DNA from: Methanomicrobium sp. W14
GTDB lineage: Archaea > Halobacteriota > Methanomicrobia > Methanomicrobiales > Methanomicrobiaceae
DNA: 64,000 nt
Reading direction: 5' to 3'
Assembly: GCF_017875315.1 (NCBI RefSeq)
Contig: NZ_JAGGMM010000001.1
Location: 372,001 to 436,000 of the forward strand
Shown here piece after piece: positions 1 through 45,784 of this stretch (position 1 is the first letter of the stretch; each line of letters begins with the position of its first letter). The notes under the pieces are model-generated. The model ran no database searches. It saw only the letters and a program-made list of their open reading frames with translations, and had not been told where the DNA came from. Position numbers and translations under genes: made by a program.

Positions 1-1262
1 ATTACGTCGTAACCGGACAAAGCAGCCCTGAAGCTTCTTTCACCGCAGCACCGACAAGCGGCCCCTGTCCGCTTACCGTTCAGTTTACCGACACTTCAAC
101 AGGTTCTCCTACATCGTGGCTATGGGATTTTGGTGACGGTAATACATCGACAGAACAGAACCCCGTGCATGTGTATACGTCACCCGGAACATTTTATGTG
201 AGCCTTACCGTGTCAAACGACGGCGGTAGCGATACAGTGACCAAAAACGATTTTATCACGGGAACAGCCTCTGCACCGGTTGCAGACTTTACCGGGACAC
301 CGATGTCAGGATATGCCCCGCTGACTGTTCAGTTCACCGATACTTCCACCGGTTTTCCTACATCGTGGTCGTGGTCATTCGGTGACGGATATACGTCTAC
401 CGGGCAGAACCCTTTGCATGTGTATGATACGCCGGGCATATACACGGTAAGTCTTACAGTGGAAAACAATTCCACAAGTGATACAGAGACAAAAGATGGG
501 TATATTACAGTCTTGTCCCGGACGGTTAACTACTATGTCTTTGCCGATGGTGTAGGTGAATATCACGGTTACCAGAATAACACAAATCTGGGGACTGACC
601 CGGTTGCAAGTTCACAGGAATTATACAGGCGTATGACAGACGAGGACTGCTGTCATGAATATGACGGAATAAATTACTGCTGGAATGAAAGGAGCAACCC
701 TGTCGACGACAGCACTGGTTCGGTTTACTGGAGCAGCACAGAGTCGGCCGACACAATAGGCGCGAACAGCGCGGAATTCGCGTATCACTCAGGTCACGGC
801 TGGAATGACGGCATACTTTTCGGGACTGCAAACCAGTATCATGAGGTATTTAGTTCAAACATGAGTTTCAGCACAGCAAAATGGGTTGTACTGGACTCAT
901 GCAGTGTATTAAACGAGCCAACGCATGGCAACTGGGAATCGGTATTTAACGGGCTTCATATTCTTATGTCATATGATACGACGGGGTTGATAAATAGTAA
1001 TACGGGTCCGCAGTTTGTCGAAAGAATGAGAGGCGGAACGTATGGAGGAAACCCATATTTAGTAACAAAAATAAAAGAAGCATGGGAACTCACACTGAAA
1101 GATATTGTCCACAACTCAACTTATAATGGAGCATATATGTGGGCCGACCCCTGCGGGGAGGATTATCTTCCGGGATACGGACCTTTTGAAGAGCCGGTGA
1201 AAAATAACGGAAACTATATCATTCACTGGGAGGATTTTCCATGCAACTCTGAGGGGGTGTAA
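1..1262 (+). CDS. Secreted PKD-repeat protein with C-terminal caspase-like (DUF6345-like) domain, 5' partial
   Basis: The reading frame is open from base 3, so the gene starts before the window; the GTG at 165 is internal. Two PKD domains are visible (about residues 8-88 and 92-171 counting from base 3), each with the WxWDFGDG/WSWSFGDG core and a closing YTVSLTV-type strand. PKD domains are Ig-like and usually extracellular in methanogens. The remaining ~245 residues form a different domain with YHSGHGW (bases 783-803) and, after a hydrophobic strand, LDSCS (about 891-905). A His-Gly followed downstream by a hydrophobic block and Cys is the pattern of clan CD cysteine peptidases (caspase/gingipain fold); DUF6345 is the family I would expect but cannot confirm. 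No C-terminal anchor is visible. Five paralogous exported proteins follow 5 bp downstream and are probably co-transcribed. Catalytic activity is inference. Confidence 0.75.
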   Translation, partial: YVVTGQSSPEASFTAAPTSGPCPLTVQFTDTSTGSPTSWLWDFGDGNTSTEQNPVHVYTSPGTFYVSLTVSNDGGSDTVTKNDFITGTASAPVADFTGTPMSGYAPLTVQFTDTSTGFPTSWSWSFGDGYTSTGQNPLHVYDTPGIYTVSLTVENNSTSDTETKDGYITVLSRTVNYYVFADGVGEYHGYQNNTNLGTDPVASSQELYRRMTDEDCCHEYDGINYCWNERSNPVDDSTGSVYWSSTESADTIGANSAEFAYHSGHGWNDGILFGTANQYHEVFSSNMSFSTAKWVVLDSCSVLNEPTHGNWESVFNGLHILMSYDTTGLINSNTGPQFVERMRGGTYGGNPYLVTKIKEAWELTLKDIVHNSTYNGAYMWADPCGEDYLPGYGPFEEPVKNNGNYIIHWEDFPCNSEGV

Positions 1263-1267
1263 GGTAA

Positions 1268-2236
1268 ATGAGAGCTAAATTAACTGCTGTTTTAATAATT
1301 TTTGCAATAGTAATTATCGGAAGTTTTGTCTTCTTATATTCTAACGGATCTGATATAAATCCTGATGAGAATGTTAGCCCTTTACAGAACACAACAATAC
1401 CTACTTCCGAATCCAGCAACGTAGCAGGCAGAGTCTCGCATAACCTTGTCCTTACTTCACCTGCAAAGGAATCTGTTGAAACCGTTATGGTTTACAAAAC
1501 AGTTCCTCCTGTTGTTAACAAAGAAGTAACACTGGAATATGCAAAAAAATTCAATGTAACTGGGAAACTACGAGACAATGCTGTAGTACAATCTGAAGAT
1601 CTGAGGTTCGGTGTGGAAATCTCTAAAAATTCAGGAAGAGTAATATACATAGATCAGGACAGACCAAATGAAAATCAGGACGCTCCACAGTATCTCCCTT
1701 CGGATGAAGAGGCAATAGAAATTGCGACAAAATTCCTGAAAGAAAAAGACCTTTATCCTGATGGTGCAGTTAACCCGTCAGTTGAGCGTGAAAATGCATA
1801 CACTGTCGGAAAAGGCGATGAGGTTTACTTTAGTCAAATCGGCGTGTGGTATCACCGTTATCTCAACGGTCTGAAGGTAAAAGGAACGCAGCTTGTGGTC
1901 TACGTCGGCGGTGGCGGAGATGTCATAGGGTATTACGCCAACTGGCGTGACTATGAACCATACAAGGAGTACCCCGTTGTATCCTCCGGCAAAGCTTTTG
2001 AAAGTCTGAAGTCCAGGGGAGTCTCTGTTGGTATGAACAGCCAGGATTCCCTGGTCTCTTTTGATGAAGTGTATCTTGCGTACCAGACGACAGCCGGCGC
2101 CTATTCTGAGGACTACCTTGAACCTGTCTGGGTATTTAAAGGAAATGTGATGAATGAGGATAATAAGGCGGTAACGGATGTTGTCCAGTACATTCCTGCA
2201 CTGGCAAAGGAGCCAACTGAGTTGATCTCAAAGTAA
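1268..2236 (+). CDS. Membrane-anchored exported protein, tandem paralogue 1 of 5
   Basis: 322 residues, family not recognised. An N-terminal hydrophobic segment (residues 5-25) predicts an uncleaved anchor or signal; unlike copies 2-5 it has no Cys at its end. A low-complexity linker follows, then a conserved module ending in the LEPVWVFKGNVMNEDN strand near the C-terminus. The central stretch with VWYHRYLNGLKVKGTQL followed by a Gly-rich turn resembles PepSY/FTP-type propeptide folds (Q-x-Y-x-G-x-P-V-x-G pattern), which act as inhibitors or chaperones of peptidases; this is a loose resemblance only. It starts 5 bp after the caspase-like gene. Its middle part groups with copies 3 and 5, while its N-terminus is the most divergent, so it may be the founder copy. 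Confidence 0.8.
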   Translation: MRAKLTAVLIIFAIVIIGSFVFLYSNGSDINPDENVSPLQNTTIPTSESSNVAGRVSHNLVLTSPAKESVETVMVYKTVPPVVNKEVTLEYAKKFNVTGKLRDNAVVQSEDLRFGVEISKNSGRVIYIDQDRPNENQDAPQYLPSDEEAIEIATKFLKEKDLYPDGAVNPSVERENAYTVGKGDEVYFSQIGVWYHRYLNGLKVKGTQLVVYVGGGGDVIGYYANWRDYEPYKEYPVVSSGKAFESLKSRGVSVGMNSQDSLVSFDEVYLAYQTTAGAYSEDYLEPVWVFKGNVMNEDNKAVTDVVQYIPALAKEPTELISK

Positions 2237-2252
2237 TTTTTGGAGCTGATTC

Positions 2253-3230
2253 ATGGATATCTCAGGGGGGAATGGAAAAGAAATAATAATAGGAATCCTG
2301 CTTTTTGCAGTGATACTTGCAGGATTTGCATGTTTACAGTTTGTCCAATCTGACAAAGCACAAAGCTCGAACAATGATACCGTTGAACCGACAGATACGC
2401 AAGTTTCAGAATCAAGCAATGTAGGAGGATGGGTCTCGCATAACCTCGTCCTGAATGCACCATCCTCTAAAGAATCGCAGGACAGTGTTATGGTGTACAG
2501 GACACTGCCTCCTGTCATAAATAAGGAGACTACTCTGGAACTCGCAAAAAAATTCAACGTTGTTGGAACAATACGGGATGATACTGTAGTTCAGTCTGAT
2601 GATTTGAGATACGGTGTTGAAATATCAAAAAAATCAGGACTTGTGATATATATTGATCAGGATCGTCCAAATATAGATCAAGATGCACCTGAGTATCTCC
2701 CTTCAGATGAAGAGGCGATTGAGACTGCAACAAAGTTTCTGAAGGAAAAAGGTCTCTATCCTGAGGGTGCAACAGAGCCTGTTGCCCAGCCCGAATATTC
2801 TTACTCCGGAGGAAAAATCGTTTTTGGTCAGATAGGAGTATGGTATAACCGTTATCTTGATGGTTTGGAAGTAAAGGGCACCCAGCTCGATGTAGGTGTG
2901 GGGGGTAACGGTGATATTATCGAATATTTTGCAAACTGGCGAGAATACGAACCGTATAAGGAGTACCCTGTAATCACGTTGGATAAGGCATTTGAAAACC
3001 TGAAGTCCGAAGGTGTCTATGTTGGAAAGGACAACAAGGATGCTCAGGTCTCTATTGATGATGCTTATCTTGCGTACCATACCAAAGCCGGAGCATATAC
3101 CGAGAATTATCTCGAACCTGTGTGGGTATTTAAAGGAAATGTGATGAATGAGGATAATAAGTTGGTAACGGATGTTGTCCAGTATGTTCCGGCACTGGCT
3201 GAAGAGCCAACCGAACTGATCTCAAAGTAA
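2253..3230 (+). CDS. Membrane-anchored exported protein, tandem paralogue 2 of 5
   Basis: 325 residues. The N-terminal anchor ends in LAGFAC, which is lipobox-like but has Gly at -3, so lipidation is doubtful. The first ~85 residues are almost identical at DNA level to copy 5. The middle domain has the variant KGLYPEGATEP plus GVWYNRYLDGLEVKG and VGVGGNGDIIEYFANW, shared with copy 4 but not with copies 1, 3 and 5. The C-terminal third (KAFENLKSEGVYVGKD onward) is shared by the set. It is separated from copy 1 by a 16-nt spacer carrying GGAGCTGAT as ribosome binding site. Function is unknown; see copy 1 for the propeptide-like reading. Confidence 0.8.
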   Translation: MDISGGNGKEIIIGILLFAVILAGFACLQFVQSDKAQSSNNDTVEPTDTQVSESSNVGGWVSHNLVLNAPSSKESQDSVMVYRTLPPVINKETTLELAKKFNVVGTIRDDTVVQSDDLRYGVEISKKSGLVIYIDQDRPNIDQDAPEYLPSDEEAIETATKFLKEKGLYPEGATEPVAQPEYSYSGGKIVFGQIGVWYNRYLDGLEVKGTQLDVGVGGNGDIIEYFANWREYEPYKEYPVITLDKAFENLKSEGVYVGKDNKDAQVSIDDAYLAYHTKAGAYTENYLEPVWVFKGNVMNEDNKLVTDVVQYVPALAEEPTELISK

Positions 3231-3246
3231 TTTTTGGAGTTTATTC

Positions 3247-4230
3247 ATGGATATTTCAGGGGGGAATGGAAAAGAAATAATAATAGGAATCCTGCTGCTT
3301 GCAGTGATCCTTGCAGGATTTGCATGTATAAGTCTATGCCAATCGGATCAAACACAGTATGCAAAAAATGACAGCAATAAAACAACAACTGAAGTCGTTT
3401 CAGGATCCGTCAATGTAGGAGGGTGGGTCTCGCATAACCTCGTCCTGAATGCACCGCCCTCTAAAGAATCGCAGGATAGCGTTATGGTGTACAGGACATT
3501 GCCTCCTGTCGTCAACGAGGAAACTACACTGGAACTCGCTAAGAAATTTAATGTCACCGGTAATATGGTTGGTGATCAGGGTGTTCAATCGAAAGATCTA
3601 AGGTTTTTCATCTGGACAAGTAAAAACTCAGGTGCTACAAGATACAGTGATCAAAATCGTCCAAATGTCAACCAGGACGCACCTGAGTATCTCCCTTCAG
3701 ATGAAGAGTCAATAGAAATTGCGACAAAATTTCTGAAGGAAAATAATCTGTATCCTGATGGTGTCGCGAGTACAGTTGTTCAGCGGGAGAACGCCTACAC
3801 TGTCGGAAAAGGTGACGAGGTGTACTTCGGTGAAATCGGTGTCTGGTACCGTCGTAGTCTCAATGATATGAAAATCGAAGGTACCCAGCTTGTTGTCTAT
3901 GTCGGCGGTGGGGGAGATGTCATAGGCTATTACGTCAACTGGCGTGAATACGAACCATATGAGGAATACCCTGTAATCACAGTGGATAAGGCATTTGAAA
4001 ATCTGAAGTCCGAAGGTGTCTATGTCGGAATGGACAACAAGGATGCTCTGGTCTCTATTGATGAAGCATATCTTGCATACCAGACAAAGGCTGAGGCATA
4101 TACGGAAAATTATCTCGAACCCGTCTGGGTCTTTAAAGGAAATGTGATGGACGATAATAAGGCGGTAACAGATGTTGTCCAGTACGTTCCTGCACTGGCT
4201 GAAGAACCAACTGAGTTGATCTCAAAGTAA
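3247..4230 (+). CDS. Membrane-anchored exported protein, tandem paralogue 3 of 5
   Basis: 327 residues. The anchor is ILLLAVILAGFACISLCQSD, with an extra Cys compared with copies 2 and 5 and shared with copy 4. Its variable block (residues ~95-125) is the most different of the set (FFIWTSKNSGATRYSDQN). The middle domain has YPDGVASTVVQRENAY and GVWYRRSLNDMKIEG, the version also found in copy 5. The spacer to copy 2 is again 16 nt with a GGAG site. N-terminus and middle domain therefore belong to different similarity groups, which indicates exchange between copies. Exported and membrane-anchored by prediction; role unknown. Confidence 0.8.
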   Translation: MDISGGNGKEIIIGILLLAVILAGFACISLCQSDQTQYAKNDSNKTTTEVVSGSVNVGGWVSHNLVLNAPPSKESQDSVMVYRTLPPVVNEETTLELAKKFNVTGNMVGDQGVQSKDLRFFIWTSKNSGATRYSDQNRPNVNQDAPEYLPSDEESIEIATKFLKENNLYPDGVASTVVQRENAYTVGKGDEVYFGEIGVWYRRSLNDMKIEGTQLVVYVGGGGDVIGYYVNWREYEPYEEYPVITVDKAFENLKSEGVYVGMDNKDALVSIDEAYLAYQTKAEAYTENYLEPVWVFKGNVMDDNKAVTDVVQYVPALAEEPTELISK

Positions 4231-4246
4231 TTTTTGGAGCTGATTC

Positions 4247-5233
4247 ATGGATCTTTCAGGGGTGATGGGAGAAAAATTGATAATCGGAATCCTGCTGCTT
4301 GCAGTGATCCTTGCAGGATTTGCATGTATAAGTCTATGCCAATCGGATCAAACACAGTACGCAAAAAATGACAGCAATAAAACAACAACTGAAATCGTTT
4401 CAGAATCGAGCAATGTAGGAGGATGGATCTCGCATAAACTCGTCCTGAATGTGCTCTCTAAAGAGTCACAGGATAGCGTTATGATTTACAAAACAGTTTC
4501 CCCTGTTGTTAACAAAGAAGTAACACTTGAATATGCGAAAATATTCAATGTAAACGGTACATTCCTTTCAGGAACAGCAGGAACTGTAATTCAATCCGAT
4601 GATTTAAGATACGCAATAGAGATCTCGAAAGAATCAGGACTTGTGATATACTCAGATTTCAGACGTCCTAATGTAAAACAGGACGCACCTGAGTATTTCC
4701 CTTCAGATGAAGAGGCGATTGAGGCTGCAACAAGGTTTCTGAAGGAAAAAGGTCTCTACCCTGAGGGCGCAACAGAGCCGATTGCCCAACCTGAATATAC
4801 TTATTCATCTGGTAAAAATATTACTTATGGTCAAATCGGAGTATGGTATAACCGTTATCTTGATGGTCTGGAAGTAAAGGGCACCCAGCTTGATGTAGGT
4901 GTGGGAGGTAACGGTGACATTATCGAATATTTTGCAAACTGGCGTGAATACGAACCATATAAGAAATATCCTGTAATCACAGTGGATAAGGCATTTGAAA
5001 ACCTGAAGTCCGAAGGTGTCTATGTCGGAAAGGACAGTCAGGATGCTCTGGTCTCTATTGATGAAGTGTATCTTGCATACCATACCAAAGCCGGAGCATA
5101 TACCGAGAATTATCTCGAACCTGTGTGGGTATTTAAAGGAAATGTGATGAATGAGGATAATAAGGCGGTAACGGATGTTGAGGAATATATCCCGGCACTG
5201 GCAAAGGAGCCAACTGAGTTGATCTCAAAGTAA
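4247..5233 (+). CDS. Membrane-anchored exported protein, tandem paralogue 4 of 5
   Basis: 328 residues. The N-terminus (residues ~15-55) matches copy 3, including the CISLCQSDQTQYAKND stretch. The middle domain matches copy 2 (KGLYPEGATEP, GVWYNRYLDGLEVKG, VGVGGNGDIIEYFANW). The KTVSPVVNKEVTLEYAK block resembles copy 1. The C-terminal end reads VEEYIPALAKEPTELISK, slightly different from the VVQYVPAL version. It is thus a three-way mosaic of its neighbours. The 16-nt spacer and GGAG ribosome binding site are conserved. No enzymatic motif is seen. Confidence 0.8.
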   Translation: MDLSGVMGEKLIIGILLLAVILAGFACISLCQSDQTQYAKNDSNKTTTEIVSESSNVGGWISHKLVLNVLSKESQDSVMIYKTVSPVVNKEVTLEYAKIFNVNGTFLSGTAGTVIQSDDLRYAIEISKESGLVIYSDFRRPNVKQDAPEYFPSDEEAIEAATRFLKEKGLYPEGATEPIAQPEYTYSSGKNITYGQIGVWYNRYLDGLEVKGTQLDVGVGGNGDIIEYFANWREYEPYKKYPVITVDKAFENLKSEGVYVGKDSQDALVSIDEVYLAYHTKAGAYTENYLEPVWVFKGNVMNEDNKAVTDVEEYIPALAKEPTELISK

Positions 5234-37709: not shown

Positions 37710-40700
37710 TTATAATGACTGCAAATTTTCCGTATCTTTATTATCTGGACGATTTTTGCCTTTTGTTTTGTAAATTACCAAATGAAGAATTTCCTTTTTT
37801 TTCTGGTTATCAGCATTCTTCTCAGCCAGAATAAGCATTGGAACTGCTTTTTCCCCAAGGTCTAAAAGACTCTCTTCTGCGGAATCGGATACCTTGTCAT
37901 CCTCGTCAAAAAGGGCATTAATAAGTTCATATATGGATTCCGGCCGGTTGATTCCTGAAATGACGAATACAGCATTCAGCCGTTTTTTCGGGTCTTTACT
38001 TTTTAGGAGAGATTTTGCTGCATTTAATCCCATCAATCCTTCTTCTCTCAGTGCGACCCAGTTTTCACTTTGGATATAGTGTTTTATTCTTTCGTTTTGT
38101 TCAATGAGAGAAATTGTATTTTTGGCAGCGGTATTTTTTTCATCAGGGCTGTTCTTAATCTTCTCATTAAGAGAAAAAACAGCGTCTGTACCATATTTTA
38201 CCAGGTATACCTGAGCAGTTCCTGAAATTTTTATTTTTTTGTCATCCAGAGCTTTTATAAGAGGATCAAGTGATTCTCTGGTATTTATTCTGCCTATAGT
38301 TCTTACAGCATTCAGCCTTGTTTCATCGTTTTTGTCATAAAGAAGTCTGGAGATCAGGGAAATTGCCCCGGGGCCGATTACTTCAAGTTTGTCCCATTCT
38401 CTGTTCTGTATATAGAATTTTATCTTTTCGTTCTGCTCTATTTTATGTATAATTTCTTCAATTACTGCTCTATTGTTGTAATCGCTTTTTTCCTCTGCAA
38501 TAGTCTTTAAAGCAGGTAAAGCAGTCTGCCCCATTTCTGTTAAAGCTTTTTTTGCAAGACATGAAATTTCTTCATCCATATCAGAAAGTGCATCCGAAAG
38601 CGGCCTGACAGACTCCTCAGTGCCTGTTTTAATTATAATACTGAGTGCATTTTTTCTTTTTTCAGAGTATGGATTTTTTAATTCGCTGTATAGTGGCTGT
38701 ATGGAGGTCTGTCCCAGTTTTAAAATGTCGCTCCACATATTTCTGGCAATCATGTAATAAACAAGGTCATCCGCATTTTTTGGGACAGTTTTTGTTATCT
38801 CCAGTGCTTTTGCTGCATTTTCCTTATATCTGCTGTTTTTTTCACTTTTAAGGGCTGTAATAAGAGGTTTTTGAACCGCATTCCCGTATTTTACCAGTCC
38901 TTTTACTGCTTTTTCACGTATGGTTTCGTTACTGTCGTCAAAAAGGGATATCAGAAGTTCAAAAGACCTGTCATCATTTAGTTCAGCCAAAAGGTTCACT
39001 GCTGTAAGGCGGACCCGTGAATCTTTGTCTTTCAGTGAAAATTTTAAAACATCAAATACTCTTTTATCTTTGGTTTTAAAGAATGATTTTAGATAAACCA
39101 TTTCTACAGCAGGGTCATTTTCAGTATATATCCTGTCGTGCAACGCACTGAATGCTTCACTGTCGTGAGTATCGGGGATTTTTTTTGCAACTTCTGTTCT
39201 GATCTCAGGTTTTCCGTAGTTGAGAGTACGAATCATGCCTCTTATACCTGGTTTTCCGATTTTTATCAATACACCTGAAATTTTTTCCTGAAGGGACTGG
39301 TCTGCGTTGTTCATTGCATTTATCAGCGGTTCAACCGCAGGTTCGCCTGTTTCTGCGATTTCGTCTGAAAATTTCCTGCTTGTAGACAAATTGTCACTTT
39401 TAAGGCCTATCAGAAGGCTTGAGACTTTTATTGCAGCTTTTTTCTTTATTTCAAGCTCTTTTTTGATTATGGCATCAATTTCGTTCTGGGTAAGCTGTTT
39501 TTTAATGTCCTTGGCTGCTGTCTCTTCTTTTTTGGAGTTAGCCTGCTGTATAAGGTCATCAATCTCATTCTGGGTAAGTTTTTTGCCAAGGAGTACGGTT
39601 GTTTTTTTGTTTTTGAGATATACGGACCTGTGCAGGAGTTCATCAATCTCATCCTGTGTCAGTTTTTTGCCAAGGAGTTTAGATGTTTCATTTTTTTTTG
39701 CAGAATATGTTTTTCCGGTCAGTCTGATGATTTCATCCTGACTGAATTTTTTTTCAAGGATCTGCATTGCGTCAGTGTCCTTTGAGTTAAGTATTCTGTC
39801 AAGAAGACTGTCCAGTTCATCAGGGTTTAGTTTTCTCCTTAAAAGGTCTGCTGTTTTCCGGTTTGACTGTCTTATAATTTCTTTTTCTCTTTTGAATTCC
39901 CTCTCTGTGAATATATCCAGAATTGCCCTTGCATTCCTTTTTACCTCATAATCATTGTCTAAAGCATATTCCCTGACATATGGAACAATTTTTGTATCTT
40001 CAATCTTTGAAAGGACACTGAGCATACCGAGCTTTTCCATTTTTGTTCCCTGTATTTCTACCCTGTGAACCTCTTTCATAAGGTAATTGAACATAAAATT
40101 GCTGTATTTCAAAAGAGCTTCCATGGCCTTTTCTCTTACACTTTGCTCAGGGTCGTTAAGTGATCGCGTAACAGGGGGAATTCCGGAGGGATCACTTATG
40201 TCGCCAAGGGCACTAAGGGATGATATTCTTACAAGTTCATTTGAATTGGAAACCATATTTTCAAGAAATGGTATTGATGAATTTCCAATCTTTGCAACTG
40301 AATTTGAACATTCCTCTCTTACATAATCTTCACTGTCTGAAAAATGCCTGATTAACGCAGGTATTGTTGTAATGTCATGTATTTTTCCAAGGGAATATGC
40401 AGAAGCTTTTCTTACGCCGCCGTCTTCATCGTCAATAGTTTTCAAAAGAAGGGGTACTGCTTTTTTTTCGTAGATGTCTCCCAGTGCTTCTATTGAAGAG
40501 GCCTTTAAACTGGTGTTTTCATCTTCCGCAAGAAGGCAGAATATCTCGTATGACTTTTTACCGTATTTTTTCAGGTTTTCCACAGCTATTATCCTTACAA
40601 CATAGTCCTTGTCCGAAAGCGCCTGTGAAAACTTATGGATGGTTTCCGTATCAAATTCCGATTTTTTAAGAATATCCTCCCAGTATTCAGTGGAATTAAA

Positions 40701-41849
40701 TTCTGGTTTATTTATTGAATCCTTTTTATCAGTTGTATTATTTTCAGGTTCTTCCTTCTTTTTTTCTTTTATATACGAAAGAGCCTCTATAGCACCGCAT
40801 TTAATTTTTTGGTCCGGTCCGTTTTTAGCTGCTTTTATGGCATCAGTGCCTGGCTTTCCGATGGAGTACAATAATTCTCCTGATTTTCTGCGGGTCTCAG
40901 GGATGTCATCTCCGAGGAATTCGATGAGAACGGGTATTGCCTTCTCGCCTAATTTTTCAACGTCTCTGTAATTTCCGCGCAGCATCATTGCTTTGGCAGC
41001 CTCCAGGACATTTTCTGTCTTCAGACCTGCTTTTTTTAGAGACCATGAAGCTTCAACCCTGACATCATTGTCAGAGTCATTCATACTTTGTATCAGGAGT
41101 GGGTATAGCGATGTGTCCCTTTTTTCAGAAATAGCGGCGACTGCCGACTGCCTTACCTCTTTGTCGCTGTCTTCAAGAAGTATTTTTAAAAGAGAGTTAG
41201 CATTTTTACTATCAATTCCACCGAGAATGACGGCTATTCTCTTTTTTATTCCGGGATCCGGCGTTTTAATGCCAAGATTGAGAGCGGGAAGAGCATGAAT
41301 CCCTGTTTTTCCCAGTGATTCCCATTCGTTCTTAGCCAGGTAATAAAACGCTTTTTCTGTCTGGTTTTCAGTTTTCCAGTGTAGTGAATCAAGAGATTCA
41401 GCAGATTTTGCCCTGACATTTATGTTTTCATCCCGGAGAAGGTACAAAAGCGTATTTATGACTGTCTTGGTGGAAGGCGTAATATACCCAAGTACAACTG
41501 CTGAACCTTGCCTGAGCCTGTAGTCTTTGTCCATCGCCATAGCTGAAACATTTTCATATGTCTGACTGTTGTTTCTGACAATCCACGCAATTGTTCTTGC
41601 AGCGCCATCCCTTGTGTTTTCATTTCCGTTTTTAATGAGGTTCAAAAAAGTGCTGAAAAAATTTCTTTCATATGTACCCAGTATCTCCGCTGCCGCAGAT
41701 CTGACATTAACACTTTCGCTGCCTAGTGATTTTAAAAGCGGAACAGAAGCAGCATTTTCCATATTCTTGAGCTTTTTAATTGCTTCCCTTCTTTTCTTTT
41801 TATCATGAGAGTCCAGAGAGCCTATTAAAATGCTGATTTCGTCCGACAA
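37710..41849 (-). CDS. Giant HEAT-repeat protein with internal LTQDEID repeats
   Basis: 1379 residues, almost entirely HEAT-type helical pairs (for example VPLLKSLGSESVNVRSAAAEIL, TTIPALIRHFSDSEDYVRE), so a superhelical scaffold. No signal peptide or TM helix. The middle (about residues 670-810) switches to five ~28-residue repeats whose core is KKLTQDEIDELL or a variant. This motif is very like the FliM/FliN N-terminal LSQDEIDALL that binds CheY in bacterial motility. Phycobilin-lyase-type HEAT proteins and S-layer-linked ones are alternatives. No neighbours indicate its role; the gene is alone with short upstream and downstream gaps. Confidence 0.8.
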   Translation of the reverse strand: MSDEISILIGSLDSHDKKKRREAIKKLKNMENAASVPLLKSLGSESVNVRSAAAEILGTYERNFFSTFLNLIKNGNENTRDGAARTIAWIVRNNSQTYENVSAMAMDKDYRLRQGSAVVLGYITPSTKTVINTLLYLLRDENINVRAKSAESLDSLHWKTENQTEKAFYYLAKNEWESLGKTGIHALPALNLGIKTPDPGIKKRIAVILGGIDSKNANSLLKILLEDSDKEVRQSAVAAISEKRDTSLYPLLIQSMNDSDNDVRVEASWSLKKAGLKTENVLEAAKAMMLRGNYRDVEKLGEKAIPVLIEFLGDDIPETRRKSGELLYSIGKPGTDAIKAAKNGPDQKIKCGAIEALSYIKEKKKEEPENNTTDKKDSINKPEFNSTEYWEDILKKSEFDTETIHKFSQALSDKDYVVRIIAVENLKKYGKKSYEIFCLLAEDENTSLKASSIEALGDIYEKKAVPLLLKTIDDEDGGVRKASAYSLGKIHDITTIPALIRHFSDSEDYVREECSNSVAKIGNSSIPFLENMVSNSNELVRISSLSALGDISDPSGIPPVTRSLNDPEQSVREKAMEALLKYSNFMFNYLMKEVHRVEIQGTKMEKLGMLSVLSKIEDTKIVPYVREYALDNDYEVKRNARAILDIFTEREFKREKEIIRQSNRKTADLLRRKLNPDELDSLLDRILNSKDTDAMQILEKKFSQDEIIRLTGKTYSAKKNETSKLLGKKLTQDEIDELLHRSVYLKNKKTTVLLGKKLTQNEIDDLIQQANSKKEETAAKDIKKQLTQNEIDAIIKKELEIKKKAAIKVSSLLIGLKSDNLSTSRKFSDEIAETGEPAVEPLINAMNNADQSLQEKISGVLIKIGKPGIRGMIRTLNYGKPEIRTEVAKKIPDTHDSEAFSALHDRIYTENDPAVEMVYLKSFFKTKDKRVFDVLKFSLKDKDSRVRLTAVNLLAELNDDRSFELLISLFDDSNETIREKAVKGLVKYGNAVQKPLITALKSEKNSRYKENAAKALEITKTVPKNADDLVYYMIARNMWSDILKLGQTSIQPLYSELKNPYSEKRKNALSIIIKTGTEESVRPLSDALSDMDEEISCLAKKALTEMGQTALPALKTIAEEKSDYNNRAVIEEIIHKIEQNEKIKFYIQNREWDKLEVIGPGAISLISRLLYDKNDETRLNAVRTIGRINTRESLDPLIKALDDKKIKISGTAQVYLVKYGTDAVFSLNEKIKNSPDEKNTAAKNTISLIEQNERIKHYIQSENWVALREEGLMGLNAAKSLLKSKDPKKRLNAVFVISGINRPESIYELINALFDEDDKVSDSAEESLLDLGEKAVPMLILAEKNADNQKKKEILHLVIYKTKGKNRPDNKDTENLQSL
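39425..39846 (-). repeat. Five 28-codon repeats with FliM-like LTQDEID core
   Basis: Within the HEAT protein, cores RKLNPDELDSLL, KKFSQDEIIRLT, KKLTQDEIDELL, KKLTQNEIDDLI and KQLTQNEIDAII recur at ~28 residues, joined by KK/E-rich linkers. The DNA shows the matching TCATCCTGTG/TTCTGGGTAAG units every 81-88 bp. Confidence 0.85.
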
Positions 41850-43116: not shown

Positions 43117-45318
43117 TCAGGTTGCAATTCCGCCTGATAAAGCTGACATCTTGGAATGAGCCGGTGAATCATTTTTCCTGTACTCGGTAAACTGCTTTAG
43201 GGACACGGTAAGGTCTCTTGTGAACGCGAAATATCCAATCTGGGTATTTTTGCACAGGTTCATAGCCATGTCCATCAGTCCCCTTGGGTCTGGACGTGCC
43301 TCCCCGAGCCATATATGGAAAATATTGCCGCCGTCGACTATCGGGAAGAAGACATGCTCTATCTCCATTCTCTTGGTAAGTGATACGTCTGCACCCGGTG
43401 TTACATGTGTCCCGTTTGTGTAGTATATGGGGAGATCAAATGTAGTCCCGAGTTTATCAAGGGCTGTTTTAAGATCGCCTTTGACAACTTTCTTGGTATA
43501 TTTGCTGAAACGTATATCTATGAGGTCGGCTACACCGAAGCGCTGTCCTGTCGTTTCCGCAGGTGTACGCGCAAGAGCTATTGTCATATTATGTTTTGCT
43601 GATATCTTTTTGGCATACATCTCAAGCTCGGTCATAGCCCTGACTGCAAGGGCGAATGCTTTCCTGTCTTCGTGAATCTGGTATCCGGTATGGTGCTGGA
43701 CCATCTCGTTTACACCCACAACGCCTATAGTATATACGAGTCCTTCCAGGTCGACTGCAACAGGACCCCTGAGGGTCCCTTCAGGTGAGTTGGGATCTTT
43801 TGGGCGTTGCATTGCAAAAGGCATTCTTCCTTTGGAGCGGATATTCTCCATCCATCTTCTCTTTATTTTGAAGATCTCTGTAGCTACGTCCATCAGTTTT
43901 TTAAGTTCGGCAAAAAGCCTCTCATCATCGCCTTCCGCTTTATACGCCGCTCTGGGGCAGTTTATTGATATTACCTGCCATGACCCCATTGAGAAGTGCT
44001 TTCCGTCTTTGAAATACATCTTGTCATCAAAGAGAGCGTCCTCGTTTGCCATTGATGAAAACTGGTATGCGCAGCACTGGTAGCATGATATGCCTTCTCC
44101 TGCTCCCCTGTATGCCGGGATCTGGTTGTCATAGTACGGTGTCCCGAATTTTGATGCGAGTTCAAAAGTCATAAGGTAAAGGTCACGGTAAGATGGCAGA
44201 TCAGGATTTTCCATGTTGAATTTCTCATTCTCAGACATGAAGTCGGGTTCGATGCTTATCTCGGGTTTGGGAAAGTTGAAAGGTTTTCCCCAGTAGTCGC
44301 CTTCAAGCATGACTTCCATAAGCGCTTTGAATAAGAGACGCACCTCTTTTTCATATTCACCGTAGACTTTCTTCGGAGCCTGTTTTCCGTCCCATATTTT
44401 TCCTTTGTAAACACATGGTTTGTCACGCCAGAGTTTCGGGACACCGGGTGAGAGCTGAACAGATGAAAATACGACCTGCCCTCCGCGTGCGACCATCATC
44501 TGTGTCATCTCATAGACAAACATCTGCATATGCTGTTTTATGCCTTCATACTCCATCCCTTCAAAGTACGGTGCAAGAAACGTCAGAAAATTGTAGTAGC
44601 CCTGCCCGCCGGCAAAGTTTGTCTGCGCACTTCCGAGGGCTTTTACCGCGTGAAGAATTGCCACCTCAGGTCTTTTTGCAGGTCCTGCAACAGAAGCCTT
44701 CGTTCCGTTTCCGTCAGGCATAAGCCCGTAATAGAAGAAATAACGCAGGTCCCAGTCCTGGCAGAATGGTCTTGTGCCGAAATACTCCAGGTCATGGATA
44801 TGCAAATCTCCCGAAAGGTGATAGTCTGCAAGCTCCGGCGGCATCTGCAAAAGGTACTGCTCCTTACTGATTTTATCCGCTTTTTTCTTGTGGGAAGTCT
44901 CTGCATTCTCCTGGAGATTTGCGTTGTCTTTTGCCTCAAACCCCCTGCCGACGTCTATTAAGTGTGCGTCGTACACAGGTGTTCCGACGCGTGTTGATAC
45001 GTTTCTGTACTGTATCAAATCCTCTTCAAGAAGTGATGTATTTACAATTTCTCTTATCAGGGGGCCGGAAAGAAATTTGAGATTCAGCTTAAGAATTTTC
45101 TGCTCTACGTTGAAGGCTATTTTGCAGGCCGTTTCCTCATCAATTGGGTTTCCACCGTAAAATTCTCCGACCAGTTCAGTCTCCTTCAAAAGCTGCTGAA
45201 CAATTCTGTCACGGTTCCACTCAAGAATAAGTCCGTGCGAAGTCCTTACTTTTGGAAGCGGAGATACCGAATAGCCTTCAAAAGTCTGCTGCAAAAACTT
45301 CTTTTTTTCACTGACCAT
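43117..45318 (-). CDS. nrdD: Anaerobic (class III) ribonucleoside-triphosphate reductase NrdD, atypical C-terminus
   Basis: 733 residues. N-terminal ATP cone (RTSHGLILEWNRDRIVQQLL), then NrdD core: HLSGDLHIHDLEYF, SAQTNFAGGQGYYNFL, thiyl-site region GISCYQCCAYQFS. The protein ends NTQIGYFAFTRDLTVSLKQF and about 25 more residues. Where the family normally has TVCxxC, a second CxxC and the RxxGY glycyl-radical site, none is visible. Other frames do not supply it. It reduces NTPs to dNTPs anaerobically. The ATG follows GGTGACTGATTA, which overlaps the nrdH stop, so nrdH-nrdD is one operon. No nrdG is in the window. Confidence 0.85.
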   Translation of the reverse strand: MVSEKKKFLQQTFEGYSVSPLPKVRTSHGLILEWNRDRIVQQLLKETELVGEFYGGNPIDEETACKIAFNVEQKILKLNLKFLSGPLIREIVNTSLLEEDLIQYRNVSTRVGTPVYDAHLIDVGRGFEAKDNANLQENAETSHKKKADKISKEQYLLQMPPELADYHLSGDLHIHDLEYFGTRPFCQDWDLRYFFYYGLMPDGNGTKASVAGPAKRPEVAILHAVKALGSAQTNFAGGQGYYNFLTFLAPYFEGMEYEGIKQHMQMFVYEMTQMMVARGGQVVFSSVQLSPGVPKLWRDKPCVYKGKIWDGKQAPKKVYGEYEKEVRLLFKALMEVMLEGDYWGKPFNFPKPEISIEPDFMSENEKFNMENPDLPSYRDLYLMTFELASKFGTPYYDNQIPAYRGAGEGISCYQCCAYQFSSMANEDALFDDKMYFKDGKHFSMGSWQVISINCPRAAYKAEGDDERLFAELKKLMDVATEIFKIKRRWMENIRSKGRMPFAMQRPKDPNSPEGTLRGPVAVDLEGLVYTIGVVGVNEMVQHHTGYQIHEDRKAFALAVRAMTELEMYAKKISAKHNMTIALARTPAETTGQRFGVADLIDIRFSKYTKKVVKGDLKTALDKLGTTFDLPIYYTNGTHVTPGADVSLTKRMEIEHVFFPIVDGGNIFHIWLGEARPDPRGLMDMAMNLCKNTQIGYFAFTRDLTVSLKQFTEYRKNDSPAHSKMSALSGGIAT

Positions 45319-45321
45319 TAA

Positions 45322-45588
45322 TCAGTCACCTTTACACAGGGAAAGCACTTCGTCCCTTACAGAACCATTGTCAAACAACTCCTGTGACGTAAGAAATTTG
45401 TCATTTACCTGGAGGACAGGAGCTTCCCTTACGAATACATTGTTTAATCTGAGTTCTGTCATGTTTGCCGGATCTGCGAGGTCAAGTTCTTCATATAAAA
45501 AGCCGTTTTCCTTGAGGAAACTCTTTAGCATTTCGCAGTTCGGGCAGTTTTCAAGAGAATATACAACTATTTTCTGATTATCGGACAC
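45322..45588 (-). CDS. nrdH: Glutaredoxin-like protein NrdH
   Basis: 88 residues from GTG 45588, which has GGGGGAT six to seven bases upstream; the TTG at 45603 gives a less likely longer form. Redox motif CPNC in YSLENCPNCEMLKSFL and a cis-Pro-like APVLQVND. Methanogen class III reductases take electrons from such a NrdH-like thiol protein rather than formate, and its position before nrdD supports that. Confidence 0.88.
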   Translation of the reverse strand: MSDNQKIVVYSLENCPNCEMLKSFLKENGFLYEELDLADPANMTELRLNNVFVREAPVLQVNDKFLTSQELFDNGSVRDEVLSLCKGD

Positions 45589-45784
45589 TAAAAAATCCCC
45601 CAATCGGTGATTATATGATTGTTTGTTGTGGAAAATAAAAAGACTGTTGGTTATTCACATTTGTTGAATCAAGATCAATTTAAATTTGCAACCCGTCCAT
45701 GTGCTAATTTTCCCGGCTGTTTGTAAGTTAATCCTTAAACCTGTGCAATCTATTTAGGAACGCAAGTGATTATATGTATAGAAA

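Follow-up and report, generated by a model that had tools for sequence, protein, structure and literature searches.

To our knowledge, the known glycyl-radical enzymes carry the radical glycine in their catalytic chain, add-on domains have been validated for pyruvate formate-lyase (PFL) only (YfiD and Y06I), and we know of no spare part shown for a ribonucleotide reductase (RNR). Among class III RNRs, the NrdD3 of Methanosarcina barkeri is reportedly reduced by NrdH, in work by Wei and colleagues from 2015. The anaerobic, oxygen-sensitive class III enzyme of the window studied here can be set beside these systems. The window is a 64,000-nucleotide stretch of Methanomicrobium sp. W14 (contig NZ_JAGGMM010000001.1, positions 372,001 to 436,000), and its nrdD gene encodes the catalytic chain of a class III RNR. 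We consider it highly likely that this gene supplies the barrel, that the zinc/glycyl-radical domain is a separate, distantly encoded protein of 120 amino acids (aa), and that the two chains probably assemble non-covalently. The features of the window that bear on this are as follows.

43117..45318, minus strand: nrdD, encoding a catalytic subunit of 733 aa; a class III RNR barrel that lacks the glycyl-radical domain (TIGR02487 and PF13597)
43117..43200, minus strand: short tail of variable sequence (27 aa and the stop codon) where fused NrdDs have their zinc/glycyl-radical domain; no Cys, no R-x-x-G-Y; sequence differs among relatives
44761..44763, minus strand: codon of Cys186, by homology the first-strand active-site Cys; present in all 41 split and all 23 fused NrdDs compared; an intein insertion point in relatives
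44071..44085, minus strand: Cys412, Cys415 and Cys416 (SCYQCC), finger-loop Cys including the presumed thiyl-radical Cys; all three without variation among the 41 split and 23 fused NrdDs
43201..43203, minus strand: Ser706, aligned with the first zinc-ligand Cys (TVC) of fused NrdDs; this column has Cys in 31/31 fused, but 31 Ser, 8 Cys and 2 Ala in split NrdDs
45322..45603, minus strand: nrdH, encoding a glutaredoxin-like reductant (CPNC), immediately upstream of nrdD (Glutaredoxin PF00462, 34.9 bits)

The open reading frame (ORF) of nrdD was assigned to the ten-stranded barrel of the NrdD family by its matches to TIGR02487 (474.9 bits, cut-off 326, profile positions 1–529 of 581) and to PF13597, the Pfam NRDD family (448.9 bits, positions 1–510 of 562). 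Both matches stop short of the profile's end, and this chain lacks the C-terminal zinc/glycyl-radical domain. Beyond TRDLTVS there is LKQFTEYRKNDSPAHSKMSALSGGIAT alone, and none of the eight Cys of the protein (65, 186, 302, 412, 415, 416, 454 and 689) lies in it. A sequence-only reading of the window had reported the missing zinc Cys and RxxGY motif and had found that the other two frames of the tail stop; both points hold, as these frames are closed by stop codons and contain nothing resembling the missing domain downstream of nrdD. The active-site Cys expected on the first strand and in the finger loop are all present (Cys186, 412, 415 and 416), and Cys454 is likewise invariant among the 41 split and 23 fused NrdDs. 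The NrdD3 subtype of Wei et al. is marked by a third active-site Cys, the absence of a Glu and an NrdH in the operon (as described in PMC4493059), and NrdH is listed as the NrdD3 reductant (PMC9176816). The window protein has three finger-loop Cys, and the NrdH glutaredoxin lies in the same operon, with 3 bases between nrdH and nrdD; the split-nrdD loci of relatives have nrdH just upstream in 39 of 40 cases. At the column of Ser706 the zinc constraint is relaxed in split NrdDs, as judged from the residues found there, and such a loss of Cys would be expected if the zinc site had moved wholly to another chain. Two other Cys may have a lineage-specific role: Cys689 (43252–43254) is invariant in the 41 split NrdDs and Ala, Ser or Thr in fused ones, and Cys302 (44413–44415) is Cys in 36/41 split NrdDs and in no fused one.

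A search of the whole genome (G000) with PF13597 gave exactly two matches, and they are complementary: the window gene covers profile positions 1–510, and an ORF on another contig covers 503–562.

G000:C2:187416-187775 (L002:1489-1851), minus strand: stand-alone zinc/glycyl-radical domain, 120 aa, PF13597 503–562, on a different contig from nrdD

This protein (read as ...YKCHTCNHIVDETPCPCCGETNLEIMCPLDHCNCQHSIIEKIEYCPLCGQPICPECGSHDVSQVSRVTGYLADVAGWNHGKQQELKDRTHYNVA) carries the motifs CPLCGxxxCPxCG...SRVTGY...GWNxGKQQELKDR, so that the zinc Cys pairs and the R-x-x-G-Y motif missing from the window gene occur elsewhere in the genome (CPLCGQPICPECG...SRVTGY). Its match to PF13597 (52.4 bits) is the only one above the Pfam cut-off, and no PFL- or YfiD-type family of Pfam was matched. 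It aligns with a solved anaerobic RNR (8p23) at E=1e-06, and its RVTGYL falls on RTCGYL of a T4-like phage NrdD (38% identity over 71 aa); in T4 NrdD the radical site is Gly580 (Young et al, 1996, as cited in PMC3322345). Considering these motifs and matches, the 120-aa protein is a zinc/glycyl-radical domain of NrdD type. Its N-terminal part has additional CxxC pairs that are absent from the fused NrdDs compared. Across 20 aligned stand-alone domains the mean column identity is 81%, no variation is seen at the radical Gly, its Arg or the zinc Cys, and pairwise ratios of nonsynonymous to synonymous substitution rates (dN/dS) are 0.01–0.26 (pairs with dS < 1.5). The sequence-only reading had offered three explanations for the short chain, namely a radical domain encoded elsewhere, a new C-terminal arrangement or an inactive paralogue. 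The first is borne out, and the stand-alone domain it would have sought is of NrdD rather than PFL/YfiD type. The second stands in part: tails of this kind are usual in the order, yet they do not contain the radical Gly.

The arrangement was followed in 232 genomes of one class, comprising a single order, Methanomicrobiales judging by its named relatives (Methanomicrobium mobile, 93% identical, Methanogenium, Methanoculleus, Methanofollis, Methanocalculus and Methanoregula); 135 of these genomes were rated good. The catalytic NrdD matches listed end at about 510–516 of the profile, apart from one fragment at 524, and the stand-alone domain was found in 192/232 genomes (121/135 of the good ones). 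Judged by these profile matches, a two-gene NrdD is standard in the order and occurs in nearly all of its members. As the listed matches stop at the same place order-wide, chance and sequencing error are excluded. A frameshift or misassembly that detached the tail from the window NrdD could be suspected because the two pieces lie on different contigs of the assembly. However, the split recurs at one place throughout the order, including in one-contig genomes where 0.2–1.1 Mb separate the genes, and no downstream frame holds a sequence like the missing domain; in 20 genomes the distance from nrdD to the stand-alone gene is about 19 kb in one and 0.2–1.1 Mb in the others. With the one-contig genomes this explanation is already refuted, and we give it practically no credence. 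The stand-alone gene has a neighbourhood of its own, conserved in the order: deoxyhypusine synthase (DHS), pyrF, the stand-alone domain, cbiZ and RPA, with no nrd gene (these neighbours, including two RPA-like genes, were named by eye or from Pfam). An operon link with nrd was considered and rejected on this ground. In a genus that has lost the stand-alone gene, DHS and pyrF are still joined, and the stand-alone domain, cbiZ and RPA were not found downstream.

Two further genes of the genome bear on function.

G000:C1:227738-228235: NrdG2-type radical SAM activase, one in the genome (TIGR02495, 161.1 bits, cut-off 131; Radical_SAM PF04055)
G000:C2:31344-32282: class II (B12-dependent) RNR, NrdJ (PF02867, 321.7 bits; open frame of 768 aa)

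The NrdG expected of a class III RNR is thus present, and it answers the sequence-only reading's call to look for nrdG; the second nrdD sought at the same time was not found in this genome by the PF13597 search. The presence of NrdJ, together with the lack of a radical domain in cis, is what would favor the third explanation, by which the window NrdD would be a paralogue without activity, the class II enzyme supplying the deoxyribonucleoside triphosphates (dNTPs). NrdJ also led us to reject the argument that NrdD is the sole RNR of the window genome, and 11 relatives without NrdJ were used instead. These near-complete genomes, three of them in one contig (G189, G197 and G201), gave no class I or class II RNR (no PF02867 match at E ≤ 1 and no TIGR02505 match at E ≤ 0.1), and each encodes a single truncated NrdD together with one copy each of the stand-alone domain and the NrdG orthologue. 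Barring an RNR of an unknown kind, their dNTPs must therefore derive from the split pair, which is apparently the only RNR in some species. Since the same split NrdD serves as the sole detectable RNR in these relatives, its catalytic Cys are invariant in 41/41 sequences and the window genome has no second NrdD to which it could be paralogous, an inactive paralogue is very unlikely.

Alternatively, the stand-alone domain could be a spare part or regulator in the manner of YfiD, not a constitutive subunit, with the truncated NrdD working in some other way. The related stand-alone domains that accompany full-length NrdDs in other archaea, a parallel to YfiD and PFL (PMC8683613), speak for this. 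Yet the Methanomicrobiales genomes checked hold no full-length NrdD that would need repair, and without the stand-alone domain their enzyme has no glycine for the radical. We know of no class III RNR that does without a glycyl radical, and consider this alternative unlikely. It is also conceivable that a split intein or trans-splicing links the two products, after transcription or after translation, into an ordinary one-chain NrdD, as inteins do occur in the NrdDs of relatives. This earns hardly any credence, considering that the break shows no intein-like sequence (the tail has 27 aa here and a variable sequence in relatives), that the small ORF begins directly with its own ATG and the conserved region, and that the stand-alone domain already has the full set of zinc Cys, such that the TVC ligand would be duplicated.

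The preferred reading is a barrel served by a radical domain in trans. The sequences themselves show the split, the intact motifs, how well these are conserved, and that the pair is kept or lost along with NrdG; docking, installation of the radical in trans and activity are inferred. As the radical end is encoded separately, the enzyme probably needs assembly from parts: the small protein would dock non-covalently in the opening of the barrel, the normal seat of the fused domain, NrdG would generate the glycyl radical at its Gly95, and the radical would then move to the finger-loop Cys of the barrel. NrdH, encoded just upstream of nrdD, would supply electrons and reduce the enzyme.

Some observations weigh against this assembly. 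nrdD and the stand-alone gene are never adjacent in the genomes examined, and the window NrdD may be dispensable, since the same genome encodes a class II RNR. The structure model of the 120-aa protein has a mean predicted local distance difference test score (pLDDT) of 70.5, falling to about 49 in the Gly loop, and a search of the PDB with it gave no significant match; for these reasons the model was left out of the evidence. Genus g17 (probably Methanocorpusculum), by contrast, speaks for a functional pair: it has neither NrdD nor the stand-alone domain, its NrdG orthologue is absent in four genomes, and most of its genomes have a class II RNR. This joint loss of NrdD, domain and NrdG may be one evolutionary event, and it therefore carries no p-value. 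On balance, the split NrdD and the stand-alone domain are probably functional as a pair.

As for the origin of the split, a quick tree built from the catalytic domain groups the split NrdDs in one clade (Shimodaira–Hasegawa-like approximate likelihood ratio test, SH-aLRT, 100) within the fused ones, the nearest being the fused L167, which indicates one fission from a fused ancestor. Stand-alone domains also occur beyond the order, within the one phylum whose genomes were searched, in genera g65, g50, g86 and g137, alongside full-length NrdD. A radical-domain tree, which has only 58 columns and an unsettled bootstrap, places all stand-alone forms on one side of a branch (99/97) and the fused forms on the other. 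Following this separation, the 120-aa protein is probably an older free-standing family that took over, and not the severed tail of the Methanomicrobiales NrdD. More tentatively, and at somewhat less than an even chance, we suggest that an archaeal free-standing family of NrdD-type glycyl-radical domains arose beside full-length NrdD as a YfiD-like spare part and permanently replaced the built-in domain in the ancestor of Methanomicrobiales, so that DNA precursors would now be made in this order by a glycyl-radical enzyme that always needs two chains, a replaceable subunit serving as its radical cofactor.

Relatives of the stand-alone domain were also seen in other settings. Loci L118–L128 (genera g86, g137, g50 and g65) have NrdD-type stand-alone domains together with one or two full-length NrdDs, and these domains are candidate spare parts of a class III RNR; in g65 (G476:C1:336659-338536, 349989-351674, and other g65 genomes) two types of full-length NrdD, of about 803 and about 610 aa, lie about 11–16 kb apart in addition to the stand-alone domain. 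In L179 (G285:C1:2320500-2323500) a relative at about 1318–1660 has a changed end (QLLRVTGY...GWLERVKKAGIEG, no KxQELKDR) and sits immediately upstream of a gene for a class II RNR (about 1893–3000). Inteins were found in RNR genes of relatives. In L191 (G048:C1:419500-425500; nrdD ORF 1084–4929, minus strand) a LAGLIDADG intein sits exactly before Cys186 (GTRPF|CIDGST...LLIHN|CQDWDL), and other relatives with nrdD frames of about 1200–1300 aa probably have the same one; in L194 (G086:C1:766000-770500, ORF 757–4107) the class II NrdJ of another relative is interrupted by an intein, right in front of a Cys that resembles an active-site one (TTNP|CVTADTW...VAHN|CGEQ). Split phage NrdDs were considered and rejected, as the phage matches shown sit under NrdD genes where annotated. 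Elsewhere in the window, a very long ORF (37710–41849, minus strand, 1379 aa) has, by eye, the look of HEAT-type repeats.

We found no description of a split NrdD in the open-access literature searched, most subscription journals lying outside it, so that an earlier account elsewhere is possible. Word searches gave no mention of one in the RNR surveys PMC9531940, PMC9669993, PMC4390871, PMC3019208 and PMC2795772, or in the archaeal fission survey PMC11237513. A natural, order-wide two-chain RNR would be a ready system for studies of docking, NrdG activation and radical transfer in which the domain can be added like a titratable reagent, and would let one ask whether an oxygen-damaged radical domain can be swapped. 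It is also a warning for annotation, as the truncated NrdD appears dead and the small protein appears to be a fragment.

Three known systems come close to the window enzyme. The first is the fused, NrdD3-like NrdD of methanogens such as that of Methanosarcina barkeri with its NrdH: the catalytic domain encoded in the window is up to about 68% identical to fused archaeal NrdDs, the active-site Cys are the same and nrdH lies upstream. The window enzyme differs in that the zinc/glycyl-radical domain is a separate, distantly encoded protein, and in that the split catalytic chain no longer conserves the TVC Cys, while Cys689 is invariant in the split clade only. A second comparison is with split class II RNR, NrdJa/NrdJb (PMC4520616, PMC9669993), in which a C-terminal zinc-finger part is likewise a separate chain; that enzyme, however, is B12-dependent. 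The third is with YfiD (GrcA), the spare part of PFL (PMC8683613), which likewise is a small independent glycyl-radical domain, extended at its N-terminus, and serves a barrel without its own domain. YfiD and Y06I are the only validated spare parts, and others for glycyl-radical enzymes are considered possible (PMC8683613); by analogy, the stand-alone copies beside fused NrdDs may be such parts. Unlike YfiD, the 120-aa protein is homologous to the NrdD domain, has zinc Cys and matches no PFL-type Pfam family. Moreover, a full-length partner is present in the g65, g50, g86 and g137 genomes but absent from the window genome and from 11 members of the order, and with an NrdD partner that has no domain of its own, the 120-aa protein of Methanomicrobiales would be a subunit and not a repair part.
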